Shown piece by piece: positions 24,350 to 44,256 of a stretch of DNA of 44,256 bases. Every line of letters starts with the position of its first letter. The stretch's first letter is position 1. A program made the position numbers and the translations under genes. The stretch covers positions 1 through 44,256 of the forward strand of contig JAAYJT010000051.1 in NCBI GenBank assembly GCA_012522795.1, written 5' to 3'. Origin of the DNA: Bacteroidales bacterium (GTDB lineage: Bacteria > Bacteroidota > Bacteroidia > Bacteroidales > JAAYJT01). A model generated the notes under the pieces. It saw only the letters and a list, made by a program, of their open reading frames with translations. It was not told where the DNA came from and did no database searches.

Positions 24350-24604
24350 TTTTATAGCTCGTTAAGTTACATATTTTGTTAAAATCATTGCTCAGAACCA
24401 GCTTTTAGCTCTCTTATCATCATAATCCACTAAACTTTTTTAGAGGATTTTTCTTAAAAAACACTTTTTTTTAATTAAAGAGGCATTTTCTTAATCATAT
24501 TTGTAAAGATTGTAATAAATTTAAAATCAGTACGTTATATAATTAATTTTATAGGAGCAGTAGATTTTTAGAAGATTTTTTAAAAAAATAATGAGACAAT
24601 TGGT

Positions 24605-24633
24605 TTTGATATTAAAAACTATTCCTATCTTTG
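24605..24633 (+). promoter_or_regulatory. Promoter of the rpsL leader / ribosomal cluster
   Basis: TTTG at 24605-24608 and TATCTTTG at 24626-24633, 17 bases apart, followed by CACC. This is close to the Bacteroidota vegetative consensus. Transcription should start near 24640, about 330 bases before rpsL. The preceding stretch, 24350-24600, is very AT-rich and holds no gene or clear signal. Confidence 0.75.
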
Positions 24634-24639
24634 CACCCG

Positions 24640-24891
24640 CAAAAAATGGGGCCGGACCAGGGTAAAAAAAATCCCTGACTGACAAGCTTTAAAGCTTAGT
24701 AAGATTAACAGGAAACCTGAGAAGAGCAGACAAATATAGGTTTCAACGGTATCATATCAAAGATAAAAGCCCCTGACACTGAGATAATTATGATACCCGT
24801 AGTGTCTGGAACGCTATTCTTCTCTCAATTCTTGTCTTACATTGTAAAAAGCAAATCAGTTTTCCGGAATCAGGAAATCCTGAGCCTTTTT
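24640..24891 (+). ncRNA. Structured leader RNA or 6S-like RNA before rpsL
   Basis: The RNA can fold into a nested rod. The pairs are CCGGA 24652-24656 with 24863-24867, ACTGA 24678-24682 with 24856-24860, GCTTT 24686-24690 with 24848-24852, GTAAGA 24699-24704 with 24835-24840, GAGAAG 24719-24724 with 24819-24824, AGC 24725-24727 with 24813-24815, AGACA 24728-24732 with 24803-24807, and ACGGTATCAT 24746-24755 with 24790-24800 (one bulge). A side hairpin CAGGG/CCCTG lies at 24658-24677. A terminator-like hairpin TCAGG/CCTGA (24870-24883) is followed by T5 at 24887-24891. Competing pairs exist: GAAACCT 24712-24718 with 24738-24744, and GACACT 24775-24780 with 24801-24806. Either a cis-regulatory leader of the cluster or a separate 6S-like RNA. 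Confidence 0.5.
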
Positions 24892-24969
24892 GCCTGAGTT
24901 TATTGAATTAATTAAAATGATTTTAAGATCCGAAAAATTTTAAGGATTATGTAAAATAAATATGATTTT

Positions 24970-25350
24970 ATGCCTACAATACAGCAATTGATAAGAAAAG
25001 GACGTAAGGTACTAGTTGAAAAAAGTAAATCTCCGGCATTGGATTCATGTCCTCAAAGGCGTGGTGTTTGCGTAAGGGTTTACACAACAACTCCGAAAAA
25101 ACCTAACTCAGCCATGCGTAAAGTGGCCAGAGTAAGGCTCACTAATAATAAGGAGGTGAATGCTTATATTCCCGGAGAAGGACATAATCTACAGGAACAC
25201 TCCATAGTTATGATACGTGGCGGCAGGGTAAAAGACCTTCCTGGTGTAAGATATCATATTATTCGCGGAGCCCTTGATACAGCCGGAGTTGATGGTCGCA
25301 CACAGCGCAGATCAAAATATGGTACAAAAAAGCCAAAGGCAAAGAAATAA
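24970..25350 (+). CDS. rpsL: Ribosomal protein S12
   Basis: A 126-residue decoding-centre protein of the 30S subunit. [19 protein letters not shown] and [20 protein letters not shown] are the two conserved loops near helix 44 and the A site, and the Lys residues that are changed in streptomycin-resistant strains are the wild-type ones. The Asp after KD may be methylthiolated by RimO. First gene of the cluster, 330 bases downstream of the promoter. The start ATG has no Shine-Dalgarno match. rpsG follows after 38 bases. Confidence 0.98.
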
Positions 25351-42615: not shown

Positions 42616-43251
42616 ATGAGACACGGTAAAAAAACAAGTAAACTGGGACGAAAAAGCGCTCACCGTAAAGCCATGTTCGCTAATATGGCATCGTCGCTGA
42701 TCATACATAAACGTATAACAACAACCCTAGCAAAAGGTAAGGCTCTTCGTGTTTATGTTGAACCACTGATTACAAAATCAAAGGATGATTCAACCCATTC
42801 ACGTAGAACAGTTTTTAGCTATCTGCAAAATAAAGAAGCTGTGACTGAACTATTTAGAGAAGTTTCAGTAAAAGTTGCTGACAGACCAGGAGGATATACA
42901 AGAGTTTTAAAATTAGGTCCGCGCCTTGGCGATAGTGCTGAAATGTGTATGATCGAACTGGTTGATTATAATGAAAATCTGCTTAGTACTAAAGAAGCTG
43001 CTAAAGCTAAAACTACCCGTCGCAGAAGGGGAACAGGAAAGAAGAAAAGTGAAGATGCTGTTGCTGCACCTGCAACCCAAACAAAAGTTGAAGAGATTGC
43101 AGAAGAAGCAAAAGATGTAATAGAGGAGGTAGAAGTAAAAGCAGATGAAGTTGTTGAAGAAGTAGAGGACGTAGTTGCTGAAGGTGAAAAACCGGAAAAG
43201 GCTGAAGAACCTCAGGAACCGACTACAGACCCGGAAGAAATAAAAGAATAG
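42616..43251 (+). CDS. rplQ: Ribosomal protein L17 with long acidic tail
   Basis: The first 125 residues are L17: [29 protein letters not shown]-like [20 protein letters not shown], and [19 protein letters not shown] basic stretch ([15 protein letters not shown]) then leads into about 75 residues made nearly only of Glu, Val, Ala, Lys, Asp and Pro ([18 protein letters not shown]). The total of 211 is far above the usual 115-130. The tail is probably disordered. Last gene of the cluster, 5 bases after rpoA. Confidence 0.96.
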
Positions 43252-43463: not shown

Positions 43464-44256
43464 ATGAAAACAAAGATAAACCATCCCGATTGGGCTTTGA
43501 AACACAAGAAACCGGGAACTGAACTAAAGCTGATAAACGGACGATACTACCTTTATGGCGTAAAATCCGTTTATGACAAAGCGCTTAAACGCTCAAGAAA
43601 AGTCTCGCTCGGTATTCTGGGCAGCATCAGCCAGGAAAAGGGTTTCATCCCATCCGAAAAAGCGGAGCTGAAAAAGAAAAGTAGAAACACCTATCTCGAT
43701 AAGCAAGTGATGGTTTTCGAATACGGATTTGCCAAGTGGCTTCTTGACGAATTAGGAGGTAACGGAATGCTGAACTCATTGAAAAAACACTTCCCAGAGC
43801 ATTGGCAGTTCATCGTTTTTATGGTGTATTGCCACCTGGCCTTCAAGTCCCCATTGAAAAACATCCCCACCGAGCTGGAACGCTCCGCCATATTGGATCT
43901 TCTTGGATGGAAAGGGAAGGTTTACGACCAGAAAGTATCGGACATGCTTTTTGATGTTGGGCAGATGCGCCAATCCATCCATGAATTCATGCGTCCATTG
44001 GACAATAGGCGACGGAGCGTTATGATGGATGCCACTGACATCGTACTACAATCGAATAGCATTGGCTTGGCGCAAAAGGGCTATAATTCAAACATGGATT
44101 TTCAACCACAATTCGTGCTTCTCTACCTGTACGATGCACTCTCGATGGAACCGCTTTACTATCGCCTGCTTCCCGGAAACATAAGAGAAGTGTCAGCCAT
44201 GTACAACACCATAAAAATCAGTGGTATGGAGGAGTGTATGTTTGTAGCTGACAAAG
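43464..44256 (+). CDS. IS4/IS1634-type DDE transposase, 5' part
   Basis: The frame is open from ATG 43464 to the window end, 264 codons without a stop. An N-terminal part (GRYYLYGVKSVYDKALKRSR, KVSLGILG) is typical of IS1634-like transposases. The first catalytic Asp is probably D189 in VMMDATDIVLQSN, followed by KGYNSNMDFQPQFVLLYLYD. The second is probably D263 in MFVADK at the very end, preceded by LPGNIREVSAM. The Glu of the triad lies beyond the window. It has richer GC codon use than its neighbours, a sign of transfer. It lies just after the ribosomal terminator; the inverted repeat ends of the element could not be found. Confidence 0.82.
   Translation, partial: MKTKINHPDWALKHKKPGTELKLINGRYYLYGVKSVYDKALKRSRKVSLGILGSISQEKGFIPSEKAELKKKSRNTYLDKQVMVFEYGFAKWLLDELGGNGMLNSLKKHFPEHWQFIVFMVYCHLAFKSPLKNIPTELERSAILDLLGWKGKVYDQKVSDMLFDVGQMRQSIHEFMRPLDNRRRSVMMDATDIVLQSNSIGLAQKGYNSNMDFQPQFVLLYLYDALSMEPLYYRLLPGNIREVSAMYNTIKISGMEECMFVADK

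Follow-up and report, generated by a model that had tools for sequence, protein, structure and literature searches.

Ahead of rpsL in the window (by which we mean the whole 44,256-nucleotide stretch of Bacteroidales DNA analysed here) stands a structured RNA element whose best reading is that of a new Bacteroidales leader RNA of a ribosomal operon, with a pseudoknot-type putative binding site. Its conservation, its promoter motif, its position and the covariation of the variable pairs in its helices (weaker in P1) are the established parts of this reading. We put at roughly 60% the probability of the reading as a whole, in which the RNA acts in cis and a ribosomal protein would bind at invariant bases and shift the balance between two helices, P0 and P1. 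The folded RNA probably helps to set the amount of ribosome machinery that is made.

Results

A structured RNA precedes a 33-gene operon

Judged from a promoter motif, the predicted fold and a terminator scan, the RNA would run on the forward strand from about position 24639 to 24891. Its predicted promoter (24605-24633) consists of TTTG at 24605-24608 and TATCTTTG at 24626-24633, the latter a -7 motif of the Bacteroidota type. The predicted fold of 24640-24895 is a rod of -65 kcal/mol (z -2.68; 3 of 200 shuffles equal or better), and its core, 24699-24841, has z -3.14 (1 of 200 shuffles equal or better). Across 45 dissimilar representatives of the element the mean z is -2.17, with z below -2 in 26. 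The original prediction had described a rod of nested complementary segments, and every pairing it named is indeed present, in a fold that is a rod. An outer helix, CCGGA/TCCGG (24652-24656/24863-24867), closes the window fold and recurs in the fold of a congener (L021). Further in come P0 (24709-24713/24830-24834), S2a (GAGAA/UUCUC, 24719-24723/24820-24824), S2b (CAGACA/UGUCUG in the window's predicted fold, 24727-24732/24803-24808) and the apical hairpin P2 (GGTATCAT/ATGATACC, 24748-24755/24790-24797), variable among relatives. P1 (GAAACCU/AGGUUUC, 24712-24718/24738-24744, 7 of 7 paired) has two bases in common with P0 and, because it crosses S2, would form a pseudoknot.

P1 was one of two pairings proposed to compete with the rod. 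The other joins GACACT at 24775-24780 to the complementary AGTGTC at 24801-24806. Both exist in the window sequence and P1 is conserved, but the second has no counterpart in L021, the congener: complementarity there extends over 4 nt at most, versus 6 in the window.

The hairpin and T run predicted to follow the rod are also present in the window, as a terminator-like hairpin (TCAGGAAATCCTGA, 24870-24883) with a T run reaching 24891, the single terminator-like site within 24500-25000 (shuffles average 0.3). This feature is not conserved: by a rule that asks for a T run behind one hairpin with a folding energy of at most -7 kcal/mol, which weak terminators may escape, only 2 of the 45 representatives qualify, the window being one of them.

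Downstream, on the same strand, rpsL (S12; 24970-25350; TIGR00981, 1.3e-68) is the first of 33 genes, counted by open frames up to the L17 gene, which ends at 43251. The count omits one overlapping 39-aa frame, and six of the genes were named by search and the others by eye. We take this to be the fused str-S10-spc-alpha ribosomal operon. The claim of a structured RNA ahead of a 33-gene operon is strongly supported. Beyond the L17 gene, an open frame at 43464-44256 continues past the end of the window and looks transposase-like by eye.

The core is near-invariant and patchily distributed

We identified rpsL in 93 of 99 relatives and read the regions upstream of it in 90, leaving out three loci. 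In 17 of these regions a core, GRAACCUGANAA...AGRC...UAUAGGUUYC (window 24712-24744), lies 134-328 nt 5' of the rpsL ATG; the loose motif gave 18 matches, and the remaining one, L036, we take as chance. The 17 aligned cores have 18 invariant columns. In a larger alignment (A3, n=65), the UAUA of columns 30-33, which corresponds to 24735-24738, is nearly invariant as well, with T in 59, A in 65, T in 58 and A in 65. Its last A is able to pair in P1, and the other three bases are unexplained by pairing. A lack of conservation or covariation of the pairs in relatives had been named beforehand as the comparative result that would count against the RNA; this result was not obtained.

A 40-nt covariance model built from the 17 cores (R1) matches 20 of the 99 relatives, about a fifth, adding G068 and G074, where the element stands before rpsL, and G036, where it stands before rpsJ. 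Within the order, 82 of 393 genomes have a match and 311 have none; among 395 genomes sampled from the phylum, the window's genome is the sole match. These searches, like all those over more than 40 genomes, used strict filters under which weak matches are lost. There is one match per genome, apart from a weak second match of 29.7 bits in G015 (L129), which overlaps the end of one frame, precedes another gene and was judged to be chance. An 18.4-bit match before rpsL of G077 suggests that diverged forms of the element exist. The exact pattern occurs at 78 loci in GTDB genomes, whose names point to Bacteroidota or to groups inside this phylum, in most cases Bacteroidales, with one given only as 'bacterium'. 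The element is a patchy feature of one order, which we take to be Bacteroidales because of the names on these records.

In five loci without the element (L046, L049, L066, L070 and L075), a -7 motif lies 138-152 nt before the rpsL ATG; the leaders there often start with TTTTTGACG or TTTTTCGC and are possibly another leader type.

Pairing is maintained in P0, S2 and P1

From 127 extracted loci we left out 42 as duplicates, which gave 85 distinct elements; four of these lacked enough flank, and the 45 representatives were drawn from the other 81. Because whole-element alignment with MAFFT misplaced the 3' arm, pair counts for P0 and S2 use anchors taken from folds computed with the 3' strand of P1 held unpaired, a constraint that leans towards the rod and for which swapped partners served as control. 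Anchors were obtained in 77 of the 85 elements, with P0 (GGA/UCC and outward), S2b (RGRC/GYCU), S2a (GANAA/UUNUC) between them and P2 atop; eight elements had no usable anchors, hence 38 of the 45 representatives enter the pair counts.

P0 positions -1 to -5 are paired in 97, 100, 95, 82 and 76% of the 38 representatives, against 80, 100, 74, 54 and 42% with swapped partners, and the gain is smaller outward of -5. The third pair of S2a occurs as TA, CG, GC and TG and is paired in 74% versus 53% when swapped; the other four gain at most 2 points over the control. S2b, AGRC/GYCT, is paired in 84-100% of the 38, and only its third pair varies much (AT 25, GT 5, GC 4; 89% versus 82% swapped), while pairing of the two bases adjoining it drops from 84 to 43% and from 73 to 41% when partners are swapped. 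Most S2a and S2b pairs, together with P0 -2, are near-constant or no better than the swapped control. P2 is variable: in the 77 elements, GGTTYC is separated from the GYCT anchor by 20-86 nt. In three loci (L152, L165 and L179) we saw by eye a possible inner pairing of the apical hairpin, between a GCGCC or AGCC loop and a downstream GGCGG. S2b of L170 and L266 reads AGAC/GUUU and AAAC/GUUU, a step from G-U to A-U. These two loci are on two contigs of one genome (G782) that differ in the element and in the start of rpsL, perhaps through a strain mixture.

A swap test that needs no anchors gave the same direction: own arms beat the swap mean in 37 of 45 representatives for the upstream arm and in 29 of 45 for the core arm (0 of 5000 permutations equal), and against its own shuffled 3' arm each of the two arms has z below 0 in 37 of 45. 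Conserved structure with covariation, as expected of a ribosomal-protein leader, is therefore present, with the anchors for P0 and S2 taken from predicted folds.

P1 (GRAACC/GGUUYC) was analysed in 64 distinct sequences fitted to it, and 97.7% of their cells are paired. Two pairs have changed on both sides; the second pair is AU in 37, GU in 14, GC in 8 and something else in 5, and the fourth has a double change in G036. Only 1 of 500 shuffles equalled the covariation score, and likewise 1 of 500 the percentage paired; for the three remaining measures, 6 to 27 of 500 did so. Sliding the partner by -2 columns gave a covariation score as high (0.135 vs 0.131) with only 33% of cells paired. Tested on the 17 seeds alone, P1 was unconvincing (42 of 500 shuffles). 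The variable pairs of P0, S2a and S2b covary, and P1 does so more weakly. In free minimum-energy folds of the 85 elements P0 appears in 80 and P1 in 4, nested folding being unable to show P1 together with S2. Since P1 shares two bases with the rod, an exclusive P0/P1 switch is possible; a single pseudoknot is possible too, and the sequences fit both. Of the bistable RNA originally proposed, a conserved first competitor with some covariation therefore stands, but a composite pseudoknot fits it equally well and the second competitor is not shared by the congener.

The element has its own promoter motif and a fixed place

In 81 of 83 loci the motif TAnnTTTG occurs 48-90 nt 5' of the core, compared with 6 of 191 shuffles. 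An additional promoter motif lies between the RNA and the rpsL ATG in 30 of the 45 representatives (53 of 85 overall), 52-80 nt before the ATG in those 30; it was not found in the other 15, which include the window. A promoter at this proximal motif would bypass the leader, which could then act on the distal transcript alone.

All 78 GTDB loci lead to an rpsL start on the same strand, with the core 136-399 nt away. In 77 rpsL itself was seen (in L185, at 171 nt from the core); for L170 the contig stops at the ATG. The downstream side was checked in 54 of the 82 R1-positive genomes, a set that overlaps the 78 loci, and the best match precedes rpsL in 53 and rpsJ in one. The latter is G036, in whose assembly rpsL was not found; there rpsJ, named by search, is followed by two frames resembling rplC and rplD. 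The same-strand place upstream of ribosomal-protein genes that a leader of this kind should have is thus consistent (78 of 78 loci, 54 of 54 genomes). On the other side, the nearest upstream ORFs fall into 34 clusters over 76 loci (44 same strand, 32 opposite) and into 26 clusters among 39 representatives; these ORFs were chosen by length, so that some may be spurious, and 9 of 85 loci have no readable one. An RNA seen only before ribosomal operons, with such diverse upstream neighbours, favours a role in cis, since an RNA acting on its own would not have to keep one particular neighbour.

The 6S candidate of the genome lies elsewhere

Rfam 15 at gathering level finds only three tRNAs in the window and nothing on the element, and gives no match in 20 diverse element loci. 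With E up to 10, six matches appear within 24560-24970, all far below cut-off (best E 0.77), and none of the six is a known bacterial regulatory RNA. The covariance-model check that had been suggested, with 6S and Bacteroidales-1 among the families, thus leaves the element without a family. The idea that it is a 6S-like RNA, perhaps already covered by known 6S families, we judge unlikely, as the 6S (RF00013), 6S-Flavo (RF01685) and Bacteroidales-1 (RF01693) models have no match on it.

Elsewhere in the 99 relatives, RF00013 matches one genome, which is not that of the window. RF01693 matches 21, 16 of them above cut-off, and none of the 21 is among the 20 that carry the element (chance 0.005, uncorrected for ancestry); the element could take the place of the Bacteroidales-1 RNA, or the two could mark different families. 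RF01685 matches 12 relatives, all below cut-off, five of which carry the element, the window's genome included. The match in the window's genome, G000:C24:22501-22638 (1501-1638 of L240, minus strand; 37.8 bits, cut-off 85), sits between zapA and rny (RNase Y), as do the other two RF01685 loci that we fetched from element-bearing relatives (L234 and L237). Of the eight RF01685 loci fetched in all, six have both genes beside them, one RNase Y alone and one neither; of the eight best RF01693 loci, none has zapA or RNase Y beside it. 6S RNA follows zapA in beta- and gamma-proteobacteria, as the text of one report has it (PMC7641849). Model and neighbourhood together, the match itself being weak, indicate that the 6S RNA of the window's genome probably lies between zapA and RNase Y. 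With this candidate elsewhere, the element is not the only 6S candidate of its genome and is better taken as something other than 6S. In L239 and L241 (G080:C28 and G043:C19), RF01693 and RF01685 match the same loci, which suggests that Bacteroidales-1 is itself a 6S RNA, although the best RF01693 loci lack the zapA and RNase Y neighbours.

Discussion

In the leader reading, transcription from the promoter motif at 24626 would yield a rod made of P0, S2a, S2b and the apical hairpin P2. The base of the rod would bear the near-invariant strand AACCUGANAA and its upper part UAUAGGUU; the two could pair as P1, forming a pseudoknot with S2 and competing with P0 for two bases. The invariant bases would be a binding site, and its most likely ligand is one of the operon's own ribosomal proteins, with L4, S7 or S8 as our guesses. 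Binding would shift the P0/P1 balance, so that the distal transcript is read through or translated less. The window's terminator at 24870-24891 could serve this control there; elsewhere it may act through Rho, RNA decay or translation, because no conserved intrinsic terminator was found. We favour an encoded ribosomal protein since the near-invariant bases exceed the needs of pairing and resemble a binding site. Should the single genome with the element before rpsJ be typical, the ligand would be expected among the products of rpsJ and the genes after it, such as L4, and S12 and S7 would be less likely. Against the leader reading count the proximal promoter motif (30 of 45), the lack of a conserved terminator, the presence of P1 in only 4 of 85 free folds, the equally high covariation score of P1 after the slide by -2 columns, the lack of clear rRNA mimicry and the 311 of 393 genomes without a match.

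The same observations can be turned towards other explanations. A new class of free, trans-acting small RNA with its own promoter, rpsL being transcribed from the proximal promoter or by read-through, would account for the promoter motif at 81 of 83 loci, for the second motif before rpsL in 30 of 45, and for a rod that in the window closes near its 5' end and is followed by a terminator-like site. We think this possible but unlikely, since the RNA always precedes a ribosomal operon (78 loci and 54 genomes, overlapping), has diverse upstream neighbours and lacks a conserved intrinsic terminator. A combined arrangement, in which a pseudoknot switch responding to one signal (a ribosomal protein or a growth-state molecule) sets the output of the distal promoter into the 33 genes while the RNA also accumulates in free form and acts in trans, seems to us doubtful. 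A riboswitch, in which a small molecule or ion reporting growth state binds to the invariant bases of the pseudoknot and a P0/P1 exchange controls the operon, would suit a core that is compact and near-invariant, may form a pseudoknot, has two helices sharing bases and is placed upstream of an operon. The A3 columns do look like the invariant core of an aptamer, which a protein site predicts equally; however, all cases checked have rpsL or rpsJ as their first gene and never a metabolic one, and as an expression platform an intrinsic terminator is not conserved (2 of 45), so that we hold a riboswitch to be rather improbable.

Rod shape and size, and the lack of overlap with genomes that have Bacteroidales-1 (0.005), are what could be said for a 6S or 6S-like RNA that replaces Bacteroidales-1 and mimics a promoter, but shared ancestry alone could explain the latter, RF00013, RF01685 and RF01693 do not match the element, and in 5 of 20 element-bearing relatives the 6S-Flavo model points elsewhere, if always below cut-off. 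We give this very little credence, and practically none to a chance rod in AT-rich intergenic DNA: the element is conserved across many families of the order, its covariation beats both swapped and shuffled partners, and the comparison left no point in favour of chance. A coding role is argued against by one-base length changes inside the core and by the lack of a conserved upstream frame. In a search for a conserved upstream peptide, 0 of 43 elements had a frame that starts with ATG and stops at the invariant UGA; with ATG, GTG or TTG as start there were 10 of 43, no excess over the 14 and 12 in the other two frames. We also set aside mimicry of rRNA: the 23S rRNA of one element-bearing relative contains AACCTGAAAC, one mismatch from AACCTGANAA, where about 0.3 chance matches per 23S are estimated. 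The preferred reading is still that of a cis-acting leader.

We did not find the motif in print or in Rfam 15; the supplements of the surveys, and a 2017 survey of 224 structured RNAs, could still contain it. Table 1 of a survey with 20 new r-leaders has none for the S12 gene, if its 'rpsl' beside rplM is read as rpsI (PMC7247131), and 'rpsL' is absent from the main texts of two others (PMC2864571, PMC8040213). Our literature search returned little on ribosomal-protein balance in Bacteroidales; Bacteroidia ribosomes, by the account of one study, fail to recognise Shine-Dalgarno sequences (PMC9976891). Now that a conserved RNA ahead of the 33-gene operon has its core defined and can be searched for with a working model, this balance becomes directly testable. 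The element would also add a family missing from Rfam 15.

The S4 leader of the E. coli alpha operon is a pseudoknot that can fold in alternative ways ahead of ribosomal genes, and the element appears to resemble it in outline, with a longer rod and a distal promoter. The E. coli str and S10 operons are regulated by their encoded S7 and L4 proteins, through sites between rpsL and rpsG for S7 and before rpsJ for L4; the operon contents are similar, but the element instead stands before rpsL. From the same phylum, 6S-Flavo (RF01685) and Bacteroidales-1 (RF01693) are RNA families described in the main text of an earlier survey (PMC2864571), whose models have no match on the element and both find other loci. 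The L13 and S4 r-leaders of Bacteroidia, as presented in the text of their survey (PMC7247131), are likewise structured RNAs ahead of ribosomal genes, confined to one lineage and supported by covariation; they precede rplM and rpsD, whereas the element described here precedes rpsL.
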